In this document: one piece after another, positions 2,353-36,088 of the stretch
How the letters are laid out: each line of letters starts with the position of its first letter
How positions within the stretch are numbered: position 1 is the first letter of the stretch
NCBI RefSeq assembly: GCF_004328625.1
Contig: NZ_CP032229.1
Coordinates: forward strand, 2,976,001-3,040,000
Length of the DNA stretch: 64,000 bases
Reading direction: 5' to 3'
Origin: Streptomyces seoulensis
GTDB lineage: Bacteria > Actinomycetota > Actinomycetes > Streptomycetales > Streptomycetaceae
Notes under the pieces: model-generated
Told to the model about the DNA's origin: nothing
Seen by the model: the letters and a program-made list of their open reading frames with translations, nothing else
Databases searched by the model: none
Program-made: the position numbers and the translations under genes

Positions 2353-3864
2353 TCAGTCCCGCTTGCAGATACGGTCCAGCAGGTTGGCGGTGGCGCGCTG
2401 GACACGGGCGTCCACATGGCCGGGCCGGTCCAGCGCGGGGGACCAGGCGAAGGTGCCGGAGGCGAAGACCCAGGCGCCGGAGGGGGCGCGGTACAGGGAG
2501 GTCTCCTGGTGGCGCCGGACGCCCTCGCCGTCGATGTAGGGGGAGTGCGCGAGCAGGACGCGCTCCTCGTGCTCGGGCAGCGCGGTGCGCGGGAAGTACC
2601 GGTCGGCCTCGCCCGCGACCAGGCCCGCGATCTCGTCGCCCTCGCGGGCACCGGTGGCGTCCCACAGCCAGTGGTCGGCGTTGCGGACGATCAGCGGGTG
2701 CGGCTCGGGCACCCGGCCCGCGTACTGGATGCCGATCACCTGCTGCTCGGGGCGGTCGATCTCCCGCCAGAGCACCGGTCTGCCGGGGCCCTTGCGCTTG
2801 CGGCAGGTCAGCAGCCGGTCCGGCACCCCGGACGCGGAGGGCGACAACTCCACCTGCCAGTACATGGTGTTGGCCGACAGGAAGACCAGCGAGGTCCCCC
2901 GGTCGCGGGCCTCCTCCACCGCCCGCCGCATCGGCACCGACCAGTACTCGTCGTGGCCGGGGAAGACCAGGCCCCGGTACCGGGTGGGGTCGATCCGGCC
3001 GGCGTGCAGATCGCGGGCGTCCGCGTAGGCGAGGTCGTAGCCGTAGCGCTCGGCCCAGCGGATGAAGTCGTAGGCGTGGCCCACGTGCAGGGGCAGGCCC
3101 GCGCCCGCGTAGGGGCGGTCGAAGGAGACGGTGGTGGCCGCGTCGGCCTCGCCGAGCAGCGAGCCGTCCTCGTCCCAGGCGTGGTAGAGGCTTGCCCCGG
3201 TGCGGCCGTCCTCCGGGTAGAGGTTGTACGCCTGCCAGGTGATGTCCGGGAGCAGCAGGAGCAGGTCGGCGGGCTCGTCGTCGCGGACCGTGAAGGGGAC
3301 GTGGGAGCGGTAGCCGTCGGCGGTGGTGAGGACCGCGACGTACGCCCCGACCCGCCACTCGGCGGGCACCTGGAGGCGCCAGGAGAGCCACCAGTGGTGG
3401 CAGGAGACCGTACGGTCGGCGGCGAGCGGCGCGGACTGGACGATGCCGGAGAGCCGGGGGCTGGTGGTGATCTTCGCGGCGCCGTGCCCGGCGTAGTGGC
3501 CGATCCGGTAGATGTCGACGCTGAACTCCTGCGGCGGGTCGACCGTGATGTGGAAGTCGATCGCCTCGCCGGGCGCCACCGCGCCGGTGGACGCGAACCC
3601 CTTGATCTGGCGGCCCACGTCGTCGGCCGAGCGCGGTCCGGGACCGGCCGAACGCGGCGCCGGGACACGCGCGCCGGGACGGCCGTACCGGGTGGTGGCC
3701 GGGGCCGGCTGGATGGGGTCGACGTACCAGGGCACCACGTGTCCGGTGTCGTCGAAGTAGGTCTCACTGCCGCGCAGCCAGGGCACCGGGCCCAGGCCGA
3801 AAGGGTCGGTGACGGCGTGCGCGAGCGCTCCCGACTCCCACCGGCGGATGTGTTCCGAGGTCAT
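2353..3864 (-). CDS. N,N-dimethylformamidase large-subunit-like protein
   Basis: This 503-residue protein resembles the C-terminal region of the large (beta) subunit of bacterial N,N-dimethylformamidase. Conserved-looking blocks are [14 protein letters not shown], the aromatic region [25 protein letters not shown] and [11 protein letters not shown]. The N-terminal 150 residues form an immunoglobulin-like beta region ([23 protein letters not shown]). No small amidase subunit gene is adjacent, so dimethylformamide hydrolysis should not be assumed. ATG 3864 is preferred because GGGAGGGGGCG lies just upstream; an extension to 4059 would lack a ribosome site. The 295 bases upstream are non-coding and should hold its promoter. 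There is no clear signal peptide. Confidence 0.8.
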
Positions 3865-4159
3865 GGACGCCCCCTCCCTCGTGTCCCCCGTTGCCATGAT
3901 GGCGTTGTCTGTGGTGCCAGGACCGGAACCCGGTGTCGTCGCTTGCGCTCTCGGGTGTGCTCGGTGCACCGGATCGCTCGGCCGTGTGGGCGTGTGTCGT
4001 ATGCCCGTGCCATGTGCGTGTCGCTCCCAGCACATCACATAACGCACGACTCCGGTCACTGTTCGTTGTGAATTGGCCTGAAGTGGAAGGTGCTGCTCCG
4101 TTACAGCGGTGGACGGCCGGGGCTCCTGGTGCCGGGTGACGGCTTCTGTGCCGCCTGGC

Positions 4160-5953
4160 TCAGACCAGCCGGACCGGCTTCTCCGGCCGTATCCCGGACT
4201 CGGCCAGCCACGCGCGCAGCGGGCCCGGATCGCCCTCCTCGATCAGGGTGAGCACCTTCGGGGTGAGGTCGGCGGCGCGCTCGCCGTCCAACAGCAGGGT
4301 GGGGCCGTCCAGCCAGTCCAGACCGGGGGCGGCTCCGGCGGTGTCGACGGCCGCGCAGCAGATCATCGCGGTGATGTGCGCGGCGAGCAGTTCGCGTCCG
4401 GTGCGCGGGGGCTGGAGGGGGAACAGGGGGAGGTCGCCGTCCTCCCAGAGCGCCCTGTCCGGTCCCTGCGCCCGCGCGCCCGGCTTCACGGCGCTCTCCT
4501 CGCGCTCCTCGCGGGCGAGGGCCGCGCTGAGGCCGGCGGCGAGGAGGGCGCTGCGCTCGGTGGCGGGGTCGGGGTCGGCGTCGGCGGTGTCTGTGGTGTC
4601 TGCGCGGTGGTCTTCGTTGTCGAGGGGCGGGGTCGGGGCCGGGACCGTGGGGACGCTGTCGGTGGCGGGCTCGGTGAGGTGGTCCAGGACGCGGGCCAGG
4701 GTCGGGCCGCCGGGGTCCGGGGTGGCCGGGTCCAGGCTGGGGCTGACGCCCAGGGAGTCCAGGACCCGGTGCAGCCGGGCCGCCTCCGCGCGCCAGGTGC
4801 GGTCCACGACCTCCTCCGGGTACGCCTGCCAGTCCACCGGCGCCCAGTTCGGGCCCGACTCCGCCGGACCGCCGTGGAAGAGGCGGGCGGTGAGCAGGGA
4901 CACCGCCTCGTCCACCGCGCCGGGCTCCTCCAGCAGGTCGCACGCGGGGCGCTCGCCGAGCCGGGCGGCGAAGCCGTCGGCCAGCCGGTCGCGCCGGGAC
5001 AGTTCGGTCAGCGCGGCGGCCACGCCCACGTCCAGCCGGGACGGCCAGCGGCCCATCCGCCAGGCGGGCAGCGCCACCTTGGTCAGCAGCCGGTCCCAGC
5101 CCGCGTACGCCAGGCCGACCTGTTCCTGGGCGGCGATCCGGGGTCCGTAGTCCACGGCTTGGGCGCGCTCGGCGGCTGCCGTGGCCACCCCGCGCTCCAT
5201 CAGCGCCGCGTGCTCACGGCAGCCGCGCAGCAGCAGCCGGGCCACCCGGCCCAGGGCCGCGTACACCCACCGGGTCAGCGGGCCCCGGCCCGGCGCGTCG
5301 GCGACCGCCACCGCGGCGTCGAGCCCGCGCACGAAGCGCCGGGCGGCGGCTATGTCGGGCTGCGCGGACGGGCCCGTACCGGCGACGACCGGGGCCAGCA
5401 CCGCGCGCAGTTCCGCCACCCGCATCCACCACAGGAACGGCGAGCCGATCACCAGCACCGGCGCCGGGACGACCGGCCGCCGCTCGGGGCGGGCACCGGG
5501 GACCACCGGCCCGTCGTGCGCGCGGGTGACGGGCGGGGCGTGCGCGGGGTGCGTACGGTCCTCCAGCCAGCTGTCGCAGTCCGGGGTGAGCGCTATCGCG
5601 GAGGGGGCGGGCACGTCCAGCCGCTCGGCCAGGTCGCGCACCATCCGGTACAGGTCGGGGGCGGAGCGCTCGGACACCGGGACCGTGGGGCTCGCGGCGG
5701 GGCGCGCGCGGGCCACCACCAGGGCGATGCCGGCGGCGGCCAGCAGCACCAGCACCGCGAGGACGCCCACCACCCAGCGGGCGGTGTCCCACCCCTCGCC
5801 GGCGAACTGGCCGGTGGCCGCACCGGTCAGCAGGATCACCTCGGCGGCCGCGGGCAGCAGCGCCACGGCCAGCGCCCGGCTGCGCACCCGCAGCACGGCC
5901 AGCGCGCGCGAACGCGCGGCCCTGGCGCCCAGCTCCCCACCGGTTCCGGTCAT
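4160..5953 (-). CDS. membrane protein resembling M48 peptidase, zinc motif lost
   Basis: A 597-residue protein with two hydrophobic segments near residues 27-49 and 60-82, then a cytoplasmic region laid out like an HtpX/M48 zinc peptidase. LYRMVRDLAERLDVPAP (101-117) corresponds to the M48 region after the membrane hairpin. PVLVIGSPFLWWMRVAELRAVLAPVVAG (split here as two blocks, about 165-178 and 179-192) corresponds to the strand plus active-site helix. Where active enzymes read HExxH, this protein reads PVVAG (188-192), so both zinc-ligand histidines are missing. Catalytic activity is therefore unlikely. The C-terminal 250 residues are Pro/Asp/Ala-rich and I do not recognise them. Transcription is on the same strand as purD, from its own upstream region of 280 bases. 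The function is unknown; a scaffold or regulatory pseudo-protease is an inference. Confidence 0.7.
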   Translation of the reverse strand: MTGTGGELGARAARSRALAVLRVRSRALAVALLPAAAEVILLTGAATGQFAGEGWDTARWVVGVLAVLVLLAAAGIALVVARARPAASPTVPVSERSAPDLYRMVRDLAERLDVPAPSAIALTPDCDSWLEDRTHPAHAPPVTRAHDGPVVPGARPERRPVVPAPVLVIGSPFLWWMRVAELRAVLAPVVAGTGPSAQPDIAAARRFVRGLDAAVAVADAPGRGPLTRWVYAALGRVARLLLRGCREHAALMERGVATAAAERAQAVDYGPRIAAQEQVGLAYAGWDRLLTKVALPAWRMGRWPSRLDVGVAAALTELSRRDRLADGFAARLGERPACDLLEEPGAVDEAVSLLTARLFHGGPAESGPNWAPVDWQAYPEEVVDRTWRAEAARLHRVLDSLGVSPSLDPATPDPGGPTLARVLDHLTEPATDSVPTVPAPTPPLDNEDHRADTTDTADADPDPATERSALLAAGLSAALAREEREESAVKPGARAQGPDRALWEDGDLPLFPLQPPRTGRELLAAHITAMICCAAVDTAGAAPGLDWLDGPTLLLDGERAADLTPKVLTLIEEGDPGPLRAWLAESGIRPEKPVRLV

Positions 5954-28862: not shown

Positions 28863-28999
28863 CGTGTCCGGCGATCCATCCATTGGCGTCGTTTGAGGCC
28901 CAACACGACGTTATGCGGTGCTTGCACACAGTGCACATGTCTTGTGATGCTATGACCGCTTTTGACGGATGATTGACCGATGAAGAGGTGGCGTTGACC

Positions 29000-31236: not shown

Positions 31237-31431
31237 TCACTTCAGCGCGAGCCAGGCGACGGCCGCGACGACGGCCACGGCCACGACGATGCCGATGATC
31301 AGGCCGACGCGGGGGCCGGAGGAAACGGCCTCCTGCTGGCGAGCCGGGGGAGTCTCGTCGACGAACGCGCGGAACATCTGGGTGCTGCCTGCGGGGTCGT
31401 AATTGCCCTGGGGGCCCTGGGTGTTAGCCAT
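31237..31431 (-). CDS. 64-residue tail-anchored membrane protein
   Basis: Starts MANTQGPQGNYDPAGSTQMF, followed by a short acidic stretch (RAFVDETPPAR) and a single C-terminal transmembrane helix (VGLIIGIVVAVAVVAAVAWL). This is the layout of a tail-anchored protein. It resembles small Streptomyces proteins of unknown function. It faces sigN and diverges from the MarR gene. An upstream in-frame start at 31503 lacks support. Confidence 0.7.
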   Translation of the reverse strand: MANTQGPQGNYDPAGSTQMFRAFVDETPPARQQEAVSSGPRVGLIIGIVVAVAVVAAVAWLALK

Positions 31432-31577
31432 GGGCCGAGACACTAGCGAATCCGGGTGCCCACCCCAAGTGCGGGGCCATGGGGACAGAGACGGGCAGGT
31501 CACCCGCGTCCACCTGCGTATTTACGATCGCAATACTTGCCTTTGCCAAGTTTTTGCGCCGTCGCCCATCGATTTAT

Positions 31578-31619
31578 TTGCCTACAGCAACCAAGCATCT
31601 CTATGGTTGCCCAAAGCAA
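31578..31619. promoter_or_regulatory. paired MarR operator candidates
   Basis: TTGCCTACAGCAA (31578-31590) and TTGCCCAAAGCAA (31607-31619) share the form TTGCCnnnAGCAA, set 29 bp apart, roughly three helical turns. A looser relative, TTGCCTTTGCCAA, is at 31537-31549. The DNA here is AT-rich for this genome. The second copy ends 17 bases ahead of the MarR start. Confidence 0.65.
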
Positions 31620-31636
31620 CGAATACGGGAGGTGTG

Positions 31637-32128
31637 ATGGCCGAGCAGGCGCAGTTCGAGGAGCTGGCACGTCAGCTCAGTGCCGTCGGCGCCGTGAAGC
31701 GCGACATCGGGCGGATACTCCCGCCCGACTGCCCGGCAGGTTCGGCCGCCGTGCTGACCCTGCTCGGCCGCCACGAGGAGATGCGCATGAGCAAGCTCGC
31801 CGAGCTGCTCGCCGTCGATCTGTCGGTGACCAGCAGGCATGTCGCCCACGTGGCCGCGCGCGGCTGGATCGAGCGGTCGCCGGACCCGGCGGACAAGCGC
31901 TCGCGCATCCTGCGCCTGACGCCCGCCGGCCACGACCAGCTCATGGAGCTGTCGCTGCGCACCAGCCGGCTGCTCGAAGAGCGGCTGAGCGACTGGACCG
32001 ACGACGAGGTCGCCCAGCTCATCCAGCTCATGACCCGGCTGCGCGCGTCGTTCGGCGACTGCCGCTCCGGCGTGCCGAGGCCGGCCGCCCCCGTTTCCGC
32101 AGAAACCCGTACACCCGCGATCACGTAA
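31637..32128 (+). CDS. MarR-family regulator
   Basis: A 163-residue winged-helix regulator. LARQLSAVGAVKRDIGRIL forms the first helix, then the DNA-reading part MRMSKLAELLAVDLSVTSRHVAH and the wing SPDPADKRSRILRLTPAG. It starts at ATG 31637 with GGGAGG ahead. The gene ends 13 bases before a large MFS-transporter gene, so they form one operon, and the TTGCCnnnAGCAA pair upstream is the likely autoregulatory site. The inducer is probably a transported drug-like ligand, as for EmrR/MexR types. Confidence 0.9.
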   Translation: MAEQAQFEELARQLSAVGAVKRDIGRILPPDCPAGSAAVLTLLGRHEEMRMSKLAELLAVDLSVTSRHVAHVAARGWIERSPDPADKRSRILRLTPAGHDQLMELSLRTSRLLEERLSDWTDDEVAQLIQLMTRLRASFGDCRSGVPRPAAPVSAETRTPAIT

Positions 32129-32141
32129 GTAAAGGAAGCCC

Positions 32142-34670
32142 ATGGCAACGACCACACCATCCGGTGTGCGGGCTCACGCCAAGCACGGGGGCGGGGCCGA
32201 CGAGGCCCCGATGACCCACCGGCAGATCATGGAGGCGCTCTCCGGGCTGCTGCTCGGCATGTTCGTGGCGATCCTGTCGTCCACGATCGTCTCCAACGCC
32301 CTCCCGCACATCATCGGTGACCTCGGCGGCGGCCAGTCCGCCTACACCTGGGTCGTCACCGCGGCCCTGCTGTCGATGACGGCCGCCACCCCCCTGTGGG
32401 GCAAGCTCGCCGACCTGTACAGCAAGAAGGCGCTCGTCCAGATAGCCCTGGTCATCTACGTCGTCGGCTCGATGGCGGCCGGTCTGTCGCAGAACCCCGG
32501 CATGCTGATCGCCTGCCGTGTCGTCCAGGGCATCGGCGTCGGCGGTCTGTCCGCCCTGGCGCAGATCGTCATGGCGGCGATGATCTCCCCGCGTGAGCGC
32601 GGCCGTTACTCCGGCTACCTCGGCGCGACCTTCGCCGTCGCCACCGTCGGCGGCCCGCTGCTCGGCGGTGTCATCACCGACACCTCGTGGCTCGGCTGGC
32701 GCTGGTGCTTCTACGTCGGTGTCCCGTTCGCGGTCATCGCGCTGATCGTCCTGCAGAAGACCCTGCACCTGCCCGTGGTCAAGCGTGAGGTGAAGGTCGA
32801 CTGGGGCGGCGCCGCGCTGATCTCGGCGGCCGTCTCGCTGCTGCTGGTCTGGGTCACCTTCGCCGGTGACAAGTACGACTGGCTGTCCTGGCAGACCTAC
32901 GCGATGGTGGCCGGCTCGATCGTGCTCGGCGCGCTGTTCGTGCTGGTCGAGACCAAGGCCAGCGAGCCGATCATCCCGCTGCGCCTGTTCAAGAACCGCA
33001 CCATCACGCTGGCCTCGCTCGCCTCGCTGTTCGTCGGCGTGGCCATGTTCAGCGGCACCGTGTTCTTCAGCCAGTACTTCCAGCTCGCCCGCGACAAGTC
33101 GCCGACGATGTCCGGTGTCCTGACCATCCCGATGATCGGTGGTCTGTTCATCTCCTCGACCGTCTCGGGCCAGTTCATCACCCGTACCGGCCGCTGGAAG
33201 GCGTGGCTGGTCAGCGGTGGCGTCCTGGTCACCGCCGGACTCCTCCTGCTGGGCGGCATCCGGTACGACACGGACTACTGGAAGATGGCCATCTTCATGG
33301 CCCTGCTGGGTCTCGGCATCGGCATGATGATGCAGAACCTGGTGCTCGCCACGCAGAACCAGGTGGCGCCGTCCGACCTCGGCTCGGCCAGTTCCACGGT
33401 CACCTTCTTCCGCTCCCTGGGCGGCGCGGTGGGCGTCTCGGCGCTCGGCGCGGTGATGGCCCACCGGATCACGCACTACGTCACGGACGGCATCGGTTCG
33501 CTGAGCCCGAAGTACCAGGCCGCGATGGCCAAGTCCGGCTCGACGGACACCATCCCGGACATGAACAGCCTCCCGGGTCCGATCCGGAACCTGCTGGAGA
33601 GCGCGTACGGCCACGGCATCGCCGATGTCTTCTTCATCGCCGGCTGCCTCGCCGCCCTCGCCTTCCTGATCACGCTGTTCATCAAGGAGGTCCCGCTGCG
33701 GACGAAGGGCGCGCTCGCGCAGTCCGCCGAGTCCGAGGCCCCGGTCACCGACCCGGCCACCGCCCCCGCGGTCGCCGAGGCCCAGCAGGTCCCGGCCATG
33801 GCCTTCGCCACCACCGAGGGCGCCCCCTCGGCCGACGGCACGGCCACCGCGGCCGCGACCGCCCCGCAGATGACGGCCGTCGCCATGGCCGGGGACACCC
33901 CGCCGGCCGGCGGCACCCCGCTGCACGGCTTCGTGCGCGGCGCCGAGAGCGCCCCGGTCCCGGGCGCCGCGGTCACGCTGATCTCGCTGGCCGGCCGCCA
34001 GCTCGGCCGCTCGGTCGCGCAGGCCGACGGCTCCTACGCGCTGGCCGCCCCCGGCACCGGCTCGTACGTGCTGATCGCCTCCGCGGACGGCTTCCAGCCG
34101 CAGGCGTCCACCGTCGTGGTGGGCGAGGAGGCGCTGTCGTACGACATCCTGCTCAGCGGCACCAGCGGGCTGACCGGTGTGGTCCGGGCGGCCGGGAGCG
34201 CGCTGCCGGTGAAGGACGCGATGGTCGTCGTCACCGATGTGCGCGGTGATCTGCTGGCCGCCGCGCAGACCGGCGAGCAGGGCGAGTTCGGGTTCACCGA
34301 GCTGGTGCCCGGCACCGTGACGATCGCGGTCAACGCCGCCGGCTACCGGCCGCGCGCGCTGCCCGTGGAGGTCGCCACCACCGGGGTCACCCGGGTGGAG
34401 GTCGACCTGGACACCGGCGCGCTGCTCAGCGGTGTCGTCCGGGCCCCGCACGGGCCGCTGGCCGACGCCCGCGTCACCCTGGTCGACCAGGCGGGCAACG
34501 TGGTCGGCACCGCCACCACCGGTGCGGACGGCGCGTACGCCTTCACCGACCTGGACGGCGGCGAGTACACCGTGATCGCCACGGGTTACCCGCCGGTGGC
34601 CACCGCGCTGACCGTCGCCGGTACCGGCACGGACGGCCACGACATCGCACTCGCCCACCCCGGCGAGTAG
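32142..34670 (+). CDS. MFS (EmrB/QacA, DHA2) transporter fused to carboxypeptidase-regulatory-like repeats
   Basis: An 842-residue fusion. Residues about 25-530 form a 14-helix EmrB/QacA proton-drug antiporter. Motif A is WGKLADLYSKKAL, motif C is GYLGATFAVATVGGPLLGG, and a later block is ASSTVTFFRSLGGAVGVS. After an Ala/Pro-rich linker, residues about 585-840 hold three CarboxypepD_reg (transthyretin-like) beta-sandwich repeats. Each has the pattern GxVR..PxPxAxVTL followed by G(S/E/A)Y.F..L..G.Y.v.A.GY: GFVRGAESAPVPGAAVTLIS, GVVRAAGSALPVKDAMVVVT, and GVVRAPHGPLADARVTLVDQ. If the helices number 14, the C-terminus is cytoplasmic. The regulator and the YceI gene flanking it suggest one functional unit. 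A start at ATG 32142 follows AAAGGAAG. Confidence 0.88.
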   Translation: MATTTPSGVRAHAKHGGGADEAPMTHRQIMEALSGLLLGMFVAILSSTIVSNALPHIIGDLGGGQSAYTWVVTAALLSMTAATPLWGKLADLYSKKALVQIALVIYVVGSMAAGLSQNPGMLIACRVVQGIGVGGLSALAQIVMAAMISPRERGRYSGYLGATFAVATVGGPLLGGVITDTSWLGWRWCFYVGVPFAVIALIVLQKTLHLPVVKREVKVDWGGAALISAAVSLLLVWVTFAGDKYDWLSWQTYAMVAGSIVLGALFVLVETKASEPIIPLRLFKNRTITLASLASLFVGVAMFSGTVFFSQYFQLARDKSPTMSGVLTIPMIGGLFISSTVSGQFITRTGRWKAWLVSGGVLVTAGLLLLGGIRYDTDYWKMAIFMALLGLGIGMMMQNLVLATQNQVAPSDLGSASSTVTFFRSLGGAVGVSALGAVMAHRITHYVTDGIGSLSPKYQAAMAKSGSTDTIPDMNSLPGPIRNLLESAYGHGIADVFFIAGCLAALAFLITLFIKEVPLRTKGALAQSAESEAPVTDPATAPAVAEAQQVPAMAFATTEGAPSADGTATAAATAPQMTAVAMAGDTPPAGGTPLHGFVRGAESAPVPGAAVTLISLAGRQLGRSVAQADGSYALAAPGTGSYVLIASADGFQPQASTVVVGEEALSYDILLSGTSGLTGVVRAAGSALPVKDAMVVVTDVRGDLLAAAQTGEQGEFGFTELVPGTVTIAVNAAGYRPRALPVEVATTGVTRVEVDLDTGALLSGVVRAPHGPLADARVTLVDQAGNVVGTATTGADGAYAFTDLDGGEYTVIATGYPPVATALTVAGTGTDGHDIALAHPGE

Positions 34671-34678
34671 TTCCCCCC

Positions 34679-34722
34679 GACCGGCCCGTGGCCCGCCCCT
34701 CAGCGCGGGCCACGGGCCGGTC
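34679..34722 (+). terminator. strong hairpin between the MFS fusion and YceI genes
   Basis: Perfect 18-bp stem starting GACCGGCCCGTGGCCCGC with an 8-base loop. It separates the transporter transcript from the next gene, so the YceI gene may need its own promoter or read-through. Confidence 0.85.
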
Positions 34723-34764
34723 CCCTGATCTACGCGCGCTCAGCCGCGCAGGGAGAAGAACGCC

Positions 34765-35586
34765 ATGGCACTGACCGCGAGGATCCGCACCCGTGACGGC
34801 TGGGCCGTCTCGCACGCGGTGGTCACGGTGGCCGACATGACCGGTACGCAGGTGCTGCGGGCCGAGGCCGACGCCGAGGGCGTGGTGCGCGACGACACCG
34901 CGCTGGCTCCGGGGGCGTACACGGTGATCATCACCGCCGTCGGATACGCGCCCGTCGCCTCCAGCGCGCTGGTCACCGCGAGCGGCCGGGCCGAGGTCGG
35001 CGCGGTCACCCTGGCCCGGCAGGGCGGCAGCGAGCTGCCGCCGCCCGGACCGTGGACCATCGACCCGGTGCACTCCTCGGTCGGCGCGGTCGCGCAGCAC
35101 CTGGGCATCTCCAGCGTGCGGGGCCGGTTCACCGAGTTCGGCGGGGGCATCGAGATCGCGCCCGACGACATCACCAAGTCCCGTGTGGAGGCGGTCATCC
35201 GGGCCGAGTCCATCGACACCGGCAACGGGATGCGGGACACCCACCTGCGTTCCGCGGACTTCCTGGACGTGGAGAAGTACCCCGAGCTGACCTACCGCTC
35301 GGCCGGGCTGACCCAGGCCGGCCCGGACCGGTGGACCGTGCACGGCGAGCTGTCGATGCGCGGGATCGTCCGCCCGGTCGACCTGGACCTCGCCTACCTC
35401 GGCACCGGCGCCGACCCCTGGGGCGGCACGCGGGCCGCGTTCCGCGCGACGGCCGAGCTGCACCGGGACGACTTCGCCATGAACTACAACCAGGTCCTCC
35501 AGGCCGGCATCGCCGCCATCGGCACCACCCTGCGGATCGAGCTGGACATCCAGGCGGTCCAGGGCGACGCGCTGCCGTCGCTCTGA
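34765..35586 (+). CDS. carboxypeptidase-regulatory-like/YceI fusion protein
   Basis: A 273-residue cytoplasmic protein. Residues about 5-85 form a single CarboxypepD_reg-type domain (GWAVSHAVVTVADMTGTQV, LAPGAYTVIITAVGYAPVA), the same kind as in the preceding transporter. Residues about 95-270 are a YceI lipocalin-like domain (WTIDPVHSSVGAVAQHLG, VRGRFTEFGGGIEI, LRSADFLDVEKYPELTYRS, GELSMRGIVRPVDLDL). YceI proteins bind isoprenoid-like lipids. ATG 34765 has CAGGGAGAAG ahead. The shared domain type links it to the MFS fusion. No signal peptide is present. Confidence 0.88.
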   Translation: MALTARIRTRDGWAVSHAVVTVADMTGTQVLRAEADAEGVVRDDTALAPGAYTVIITAVGYAPVASSALVTASGRAEVGAVTLARQGGSELPPPGPWTIDPVHSSVGAVAQHLGISSVRGRFTEFGGGIEIAPDDITKSRVEAVIRAESIDTGNGMRDTHLRSADFLDVEKYPELTYRSAGLTQAGPDRWTVHGELSMRGIVRPVDLDLAYLGTGADPWGGTRAAFRATAELHRDDFAMNYNQVLQAGIAAIGTTLRIELDIQAVQGDALPSL

Positions 35587-35617: not shown

Positions 35618-36088
35618 ATGGCTCCCAACATCGCTACGAACACCAAAGTGACCCTGCCGGAACTGCTGGACTTCGTACGACCCCGCCATCGCGCCATCCT
35701 GCTGACCCGGCGCTCGGACGGCTCCCCGCAGGGCTCCCCGCTGACCTGCGGGGTGGACGACTCCGGGCGGATCGTGGCCTCCACCTATCCGGAGCGGGCC
35801 AAGACGCGGAACGCCAAGCGGGACGAGCGGGTCAGCCTGATCGTGCTGAGCGACGAGTGGAACGGGCCCTGGGTCCAGATCGACGGCACGGCCGAGGTGC
35901 TGGACACCCCGGACTCCGTCGAGCCGCTGGTCGAGTACTACCGGAACATCGCCGGTGAGCACCCGGACTGGGACGAGTACCGCACGGCCATGGCCGAGCA
36001 GGGCAAGTCCATCATCCGGGTGACGCCGGAGCGGTGGGGGCCGGTGGCGACCGGCGGGTTCCCGGCCCGGCTCGCGTCCGGCTCGTAG
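35618..36088 (+). CDS. PPOX-class F420-dependent flavin/deazaflavin enzyme
   Basis: A 156-residue split-barrel protein of the pyridoxamine-oxidase-like family, in the F420-dependent group (TIGR03618 type). LLDFVRPRHRAILLTRRSDG, GVDDSGRIVASTYPERAKTR, and VSLIVLSDEWNGPWVQIDG are the family blocks; the K-T-R-N segment binds the cofactor phosphate. It would reduce a small molecule with F420H2, but the substrate is unknown. The transcript is probably leaderless. A shared terminator separates it from the convergent TetR gene. Confidence 0.9.
   Translation: MAPNIATNTKVTLPELLDFVRPRHRAILLTRRSDGSPQGSPLTCGVDDSGRIVASTYPERAKTRNAKRDERVSLIVLSDEWNGPWVQIDGTAEVLDTPDSVEPLVEYYRNIAGEHPDWDEYRTAMAEQGKSIIRVTPERWGPVATGGFPARLASGS

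Follow-up and report, generated by a model that had tools for sequence, protein, structure and literature searches.

A strictly neighboring TTR-YceI gene as candidate capture and hand-over partner of a TTR-tailed, MarR-regulated MFS pump in Streptomyces

The window (the whole 64-kb stretch of DNA that was analyzed, G000:C1:2976001-3040000 of a 6.4-Mb genome) holds a MarR gene, a gene for an MFS pump that ends in a tail of three TTR-like domains (TTR3), and a gene that joins one such domain to a YceI barrel (Table 1). The neighborhood of tail and YceI is strict, and the two co-occur far above chance. The reading that we favor, tentatively and a little short of an even chance, is that of an antibiotic-responsive pump under MarR control with a docking tail and a YceI partner for capture and hand-over. 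On binding certain antibiotics, the MarR repressor would come off its operators, and the 14-helix DHA2 efflux pump would thereby be derepressed; TTR3, on its flexible linker, would form a cytoplasmic docking platform to which the TTR domain of the YceI protein would bind; and the YceI barrel would capture an amphiphilic compound, perhaps a foreign antibiotic, a metabolite of the cell itself, or a quinone or isoprenoid, and deliver it to the pump's inner mouth. In the usual picture of MFS drug efflux, the substrate reaches the pump unaided from the membrane or the cytosol; a docking tail with a cytosolic binding partner would, if real, add a capture step to it.

Table 1. Features of the locus, in window coordinates, with the evidence for each
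Feature	Position	Strand	Basis
Small divergent gene, in the position of sav_4188	31237..31503	-	ORF; agrees with published gene order
MarR operator a, TTGCCTTTGCCAA	31537..31549	+	exact match to published SAV4189 consensus TTGCCYKHRSCAA
MarR operator b1	31578..31590	+	one mismatch to SAV4189 consensus
MarR operator b2	31607..31619	+	one mismatch to SAV4189 consensus
MarR-family repressor	31637..32128	+	Pfam MarR, operators, sigF-sigN gene order
Putative DHA2 (EmrB/QacA) MFS efflux pump with C-terminal TTR3 tail, 842 aa	32142..34670	+	Pfam, NCBIfam, AlphaFold2, Foldseek
Pump membrane core, 14 predicted helices, residues 26-512	32217..33677	+	AlphaFold2 helices, positive-inside charge count
Pump linker, predicted disordered, residues 523-589	33708..33908	+	AlphaFold2 pLDDT < 50
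Three TTR-like (CarboxypepD_reg) domains of the pump tail	33909..34655	+	Pfam, AlphaFold2, profile comparison
GC-rich hairpin, 18 bp, between pump and YceI genes	34679..34722	+	stem versus shuffles
TTR-YceI protein, 273 aa; TTR-like 3-83, YceI barrel 97-264	34765..35586	+	Pfam, AlphaFold2
PPOX-class F420-dependent oxidoreductase (TIGR03618)	35618..36088	+	NCBIfam, 130 bits

The proteins of the locus have their closest relatives, among the matches listed, in Streptomyces. Two mutually similar genes at 28973 and 29956, which by gene order we take to be those of the sigma factors SigF and SigN, precede the small divergent gene, which is outside the module, and then come MarR (Pfam, E = 3.1e-12), the pump, and TTR-YceI. 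The order sigF-sigN-small gene-MarR-MFS is matched in the window, S. avermitilis having been compared by order and not by protein alignment. In S. coelicolor, sigN (SCO4034) comes next after sigF (SCO4035) (PMC8346170), SCO4032 is reported as a MarR protein, and SCO4031 as an MFS transporter. The S. avermitilis pair SAV4189-SAV4190 is the same MarR-MFS pair after sigF-sigN, and its three 13-bp operators are shared as well. In the window, the three palindromes before the MarR gene have 0, 1, and 1 mismatches to TTGCCYKHRSCAA and stand as one palindrome followed by a pair, as in the published S. avermitilis layout. Within the 64 kb, five sites with at most one mismatch were observed against 1.27 expected from shuffling, and the exact consensus has two copies in the genome, one at this locus and the other at G000:C1:242795-242807. 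Across 16 other loci scanned, operator a recurs in 5 (L035-L039), b1 and b2 each have a site at matching distance in 10, and two or three sites with at most one mismatch precede the MarR gene in 10 (L035-L043 and L055); three loci have no MarR match, and in a further three (L044, L046, and L057) MarR is distant and operator sites number zero. Gene order and operator layout together mark the MarR-pump pair as the ortholog of SAV4189/SAV4190 (SCO4032/SCO4031).

The pair is thus already known as a published antibiotic-responsive operon. SAV4189 is the repressor of sav_4190 and of its own gene, and hygromycin B and thiostrepton release it (PMC6036246); deletion of sav_4190 in the wild type raised avermectin by about 56-67%. 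Capture and hand-over could help explain that increase, would offer a handle on the compounds that Streptomyces pumps out, and would point strain work in antibiotic producers to a specific target. The tail and YceI, both present in the window, go unaddressed in the main text of that paper, which contains no mention of YceI, sav_4191, carboxypeptidase, C-terminal, topology, or lipid (PMC6036246). Within the open-licence literature, we found no paper treating YceI together with Streptomyces, MarR, and MFS, and none with the Pfam domain names together with MFS and Streptomyces; the term transthyretin-like domain is absent from the top-listed related papers. The sequence-only reading of this DNA had described the set as a system without known counterpart, which can hold only for its tail-YceI part. 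It had also placed a MarR gene with paired operators at the head of the set: the gene and the pair (31578 and 31607) are there, but the sites number three, and the one at 31537 lies outside the interval 31578..35586 that it had drawn.

Whether MarR leads all three genes is a separate matter. The hairpin between the pump and YceI genes of the window is terminator-like and has no T run; 0 of 100 shuffles gave such a stem. In 20 Streptomyces-type loci (the window and L005-L023), the gap between the two genes measures 78-381 nt and contains a perfect stem of at least 12 bp in 11; by shuffling, the stem was reached by at most 1 in 100 in 12 of the 20, and in the other 8 it is not unusual. In five other loci the distance to the homologous YceI start is 20, 20, 20, -1, and 44 nt, and in seven non-Streptomyces named loci it is 6, 6, 26, 77, 181, 192, and 296 nt, the gene at 77 nt having a possible start at -4. 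Outside Streptomyces the gap is therefore at most 44 nt in 8 of 12 loci and 77-296 nt in the remaining 4, so that the coupling of pump and YceI is tight in those 8 and loose within Streptomyces. SCO4032 and SCO4031 are reported among the changed genes in two S. coelicolor transcriptome papers; SCO4030, by gene order presumably the YceI gene of this species, is absent from the main text of those papers and of others in the open-licence literature that cover its neighbors. Because of the hairpin, present in about half of the loci, and this absence, MarR control over all three genes in Streptomyces is uncertain and joint induction of pump and YceI is only putative there.

As the sequence-only reading had recognized, the pump is of the EmrB/QacA type with three CarboxypepD_reg repeats at its C terminus; Pfam, TIGR00711, and the AlphaFold2 model agree on this. 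MFS_1 covers residues 36-431 (E = 9.3e-48, 163 bits), the NCBIfam EmrB family TIGR00711 is matched at 231.4 bits (cut-off 230.2), and CarboxypepD_reg (PF13620) matches the tail in three stretches (E = 1.6e-34, 118.6 bits, over cut-off). The AlphaFold2 model (33 sequences, mean pLDDT 80) has 14 long helices, the disordered linker, and beta domains at 592-835, with domain borders set by eye at about 590-672, 673-757, and 758-838. Homology and helix number assign the pump to the DHA2 (EmrB/QacA) family, for which proton-driven drug export is putative. In a Foldseek search, the first eight solved matches comprise EmrB (the best), EfpA, an Rv1410 homolog, and QacA, and include EfpA with lipids and the Rv1410 homolog called a triacylglyceride transporter; no solved chain listed has a best stretch that covers both core and tail. 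EmrB, QacA, and EfpA share the core fold and family with the window pump, whereas the tail is an extra of the latter. Hydropathy alone gives 13 helices; with helix 2 (68-86) placed by hand, an N-in/C-in arrangement has 23 Lys/Arg residues inside versus 10 outside, and the modeled tail is accordingly predicted to be cytoplasmic.

The next gene joins what is probably a CarboxypepD_reg-type domain to YceI, also as previously read. The YceI domain (PF04264) scores 146.7 bits (E = 8.8e-43, over cut-off), and the N-terminal domain is borderline against the Pfam cut-off of 32.3 bits for CarboxypepD_reg, with 29.8 bits (E = 8e-07), under it, in one scan, 32.2 in a second, and 32.5, just over, when frame neighbors are included. 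By profile comparison it matches tail domain 1 with 98% probability (scores to tail domains 1, 2, and 3 of 73.7, 63.1, and 60.7) and is slightly nearer to the corresponding domain of the other TTR-YceI group (77.8) than to tail domain 1. The protein has no hydrophobic stretch at its start, where 19-residue segments score at most 0.93 within the first 40 residues; a value of 1.7 occurs at residues 54-72, within the TTR domain. With no signal-like start, the protein is predicted to be cytoplasmic, which, together with the 14 helices and the charge count of the pump, bears out as a prediction the earlier placement of repeats and YceI on the same, inner side. A second TTR-YceI protein of the genome (type B; L034 6386-7351, G000:C1:1965406), 45% identical, lies between comEC- and holA-type genes, and its relatives in L049, L051, and L053 have similar surroundings with no TTR pump nearby.

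The AlphaFold2 model of the TTR-YceI protein (29 sequences, pLDDT 79) matches TT1927b and E. coli YceI, and also BcnA/BcnB and an antibiotic sequester of Pseudomonas aeruginosa, with TMt 0.82-0.87 to 1wub, 7bwl, and 1y0g. The closest solved relative is 1wub (TT1927b), titled polyisoprenoid-binding protein; 7bwl is titled antibiotic sequester. TT1927b, 7bwl, and BcnA/BcnB have the same barrel domain as the window protein. YceI-family proteins are reported to bind antibiotics and octaprenyl pyrophosphate: BcnA and BcnB held the latter, and BcnA sequestered antibiotics, gentamicin not among them (PMC5350466). By analogy, binding of a hydrophobic ligand in the YceI barrel of the window is putative. 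Hygromycin B is hydrophilic; since it shares this property with gentamicin, which BcnA did not sequester, it makes an unlikely ligand. Whereas BcnA is a secreted protein with a link to a cytochrome b561 gene, the window protein lacks a signal-like start, carries an N-terminal TTR domain, and is flanked by the pump and the PPOX gene, with no cytochrome b561 gene in the place that one holds in the BcnA-LcoA type. Elsewhere, yceI is reported to adjoin sadA in sulfonamide degraders.

Among known pumps, Rv1410 is reported to work with the lipid-binding lipoprotein LprG (PMC10576003), and like the system proposed here it couples a DHA2 pump to a dedicated protein that binds a hydrophobic ligand. The two differ in that LprG is described as a periplasmic lipoprotein that receives the substrate, whereas the window partner is a YceI barrel, predicted to be cytoplasmic, that lacks a signal-like start, and in the TTR3 that the window pump bears.

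Co-occurrence was assessed in two genome sets, which share some genomes and are not independent. Full-length TTR-YceI genes (at least 49% identity, with the match starting at residue 1-4; tail and YceI positions were compared by eye) number 25 in 296 genomes of the class, all 25 with the TTR3 tail directly upstream on the same strand. In named genomes, the best 80 of at least 579 confirmed loci have the tail upstream of YceI in all 80, with a recognized core on the same strand in 79 and a MarR match in 74. The window's genus accounts for 20 of the 25 class loci; 73 of those best 80 are from Streptomyces and 7 from five other genera (Streptacidiphilus, Nocardioides, Blastococcus, Actinomadura, and Saccharopolyspora). 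Within 28 genomes of the window's genus, both genes are present in 20, the pump only in one (G182), YceI only in none, and neither in seven (Fisher 6.8e-6, kinship ignored). As a control, 12 plain-YceI loci were fetched, and 0 of the 8 that were resolved has a pump-matching gene within two places. The check proposed with the sequence-only reading, co-occurrence of the MFS fusion and the YceI gene, hence came out far above chance. Pumps without YceI are found in G182 and G081, and in G161 (L057) only split remnants of YceI accompany the pump. In G081 (L069 6324-9797) the TTR3-pump frame of 1157 aa continues past the tail into an unrelated stretch and is likely disturbed. The PPOX gene starts 31 nt past the end of the YceI gene in the window and is present in 57 of the best 80 named loci, and G182 (L055) has kept it while missing YceI; this oxidoreductase is a neighbor in many Streptomyces, and its membership in the module is doubtful.

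TTR3 and YceI were retained together in two loci whose membrane core differs. Relative to the window, the locus L163 (Actinomadura) has 28% identity in the core, 58% in TTR3, and 63% in YceI, and L185 (Streptacidiphilus) has 42, 63, and 72%, respectively. Trees of 44 cores and 44 tails are discordant: six tails that fall among the type-A tails ride on other cores, of which L163 and L185 keep an adjacent YceI and the other four (L058, L059, L060, and L063) have none. A clade uniting 21 type-A rows with L163 and L185 is rejected by the core data (p 1e-111). By the tail data, a type A that excludes the six swapped tails is rejected (p 0.0018), as is, at weaker significance, one that excludes only L163 and L185 (p 0.027). 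These tests used a quick LG model on groups named after the trees had been seen.

TTR tails are also found on other pumps. CarboxypepD_reg has 11 matches in the window's own genome, and the 9 domains over the Pfam cut-off are confined to five genes, three for MFS pumps and two for YceI proteins. A same-strand SRPBCC gene (L054 4760-5260, G000:C1:5246759-5247259; Polyketide_cyc2, E = 1.1e-23) precedes the second TTR3 pump (G000:C1:5247394-5249832) by 134 nt. Such a same-strand upstream gene is present in 20 of 20 loci of this group; the other two of the 22 loci examined, L064 and L091, lack it and, with cores only 43 and 33% identical, belong to other groups. Within the 20, L089 (G112) has SRPBCC and then a TTR3 tail with no core match, the pump core seemingly missing, and the core match of L083 starts at a distance of about 0.8 kb. 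With 17 Polyketide_cyc2 (15 over cut-off), 3 YceI, and 111 MFS_1 matches in the genome, a ligand-binding neighbor by chance is unlikely, though possible for one group. MMPL pumps, an unrelated family, bear the same kind of tail: single TTR domains in 6 of 6 tested (L105, L106, L109, L111, L115, and L116) and a three-domain C-terminal tail in L068 2066-5452. The third MFS pump of the genome has a single TTR tail (L103 5644-7392, G000:C1:1756643-1758391) and resembles pumps in L107, L108, L110, L112, L114, and L117. In BLAST, and in Pfam scans of part of the neighbors, the single-TTR MFS, single-TTR MMPL, and other TTR3 groups had no YceI or SRPBCC neighbor, and the idea that every TTR tail needs YceI as its partner was rejected. 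A ligand-binding neighbor for the single-TTR MFS group was considered as well, but the gene that follows the pump in the window's own genome encodes a methyltransferase, so the pattern does not reach this group. It is conceivable, if doubtful, that actinobacterial efflux pumps with several MFS cores, and MMPL pumps too, share the TTR tail as a portable docking cassette on the cytoplasmic side. It would recruit soluble proteins dedicated to ligand binding, YceI in one group and SRPBCC in another, for cytosolic capture and hand-over of drugs or metabolites; if so, the tails and their partners would do in the cytoplasm what adaptor or carrier proteins do in the periplasm.

Several other explanations have to be weighed against capture and hand-over. 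TTR3 might act alone, whether as an intramolecular gate, as a means of clustering, or by anchoring the pump to another protein, with YceI a separately transcribed lipid or quinone binder for stress protection that never contacts the pump. The stems in 11 of 20 Streptomyces loci, the pumps without an intact YceI in G182, G161, and G081, the TTR-pump groups (MMPL included) without adjacent YceI, and the type-B TTR-YceI far from any pump are all as expected for this arrangement; we nevertheless consider it rather unlikely, as it leaves aside the adjacency in 25 of 25 and 80 of 80 loci (the latter the best of at least 579), the gaps of at most 44 nt in 8 of 12 non-Streptomyces loci, the retention of YceI with TTR3 on two other cores, and the plain-YceI loci, where no gene within two places matched these pumps in 8 of the 8 resolved. 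Mere inheritance of a neighborhood without function, by common descent alone, would fit the concentration of the loci in one genus (20 of 25, and 73 of the best 80), but recurrence in five other named genera and the two other cores on which tail and YceI have remained together make it very unlikely.

The sequence-only reading had favored an export role, in which YceI would carry a membrane lipid or an isoprenoid through the cytoplasm to the pump, which would expel it. The title of TT1927b, the presence of EfpA with lipids and of a triacylglyceride transporter among the nearest solved pumps, and the partnership of Rv1410 with a lipid-binding lipoprotein (PMC10576003) lend themselves to this role. 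Against it, the orthologous repressor answers antibiotics and pump deletion raises avermectin (PMC6036246), EmrB is the best structural match of the pump with QacA within the first eight, the YceI family is reported to bind antibiotics too, and Pfam and NCBIfam recognized no lipid pathway gene among the six window genes scanned; no specific support for lipid export emerged, and we regard it as improbable. A tail outside the cell that never meets a YceI protein inside is the least credible arrangement and is given hardly any weight. Domains of the CarboxypepD_reg type are common on secreted proteins, but 14 helices and the charge bias of 23 versus 10 argue for N-in/C-in, and the same kind of tail is found on MMPL pumps, whose C terminus is cytoplasmic.

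Direct fusions of pump and YceI were sought as well. Two candidates were set aside: in L048 the long frame around YceI is in a different frame from the pump, and P0241 (Actinomadura madurae, 839 aa), which comprises the end of an MFS core, TTR domains, and YceI in that order, seems frame-disrupted and was not counted. A database search for longer YceI proteins yielded P0241 alone, and hence no clean fusion. In L177 (Streptomyces macrolidinus), which may be a real rearrangement or an assembly error, a 585-aa open frame (3550-5307) spans TTR3 and YceI, a single case that was not counted; the MFS core stops just before this frame, and a long inverted repeat lies between the two.
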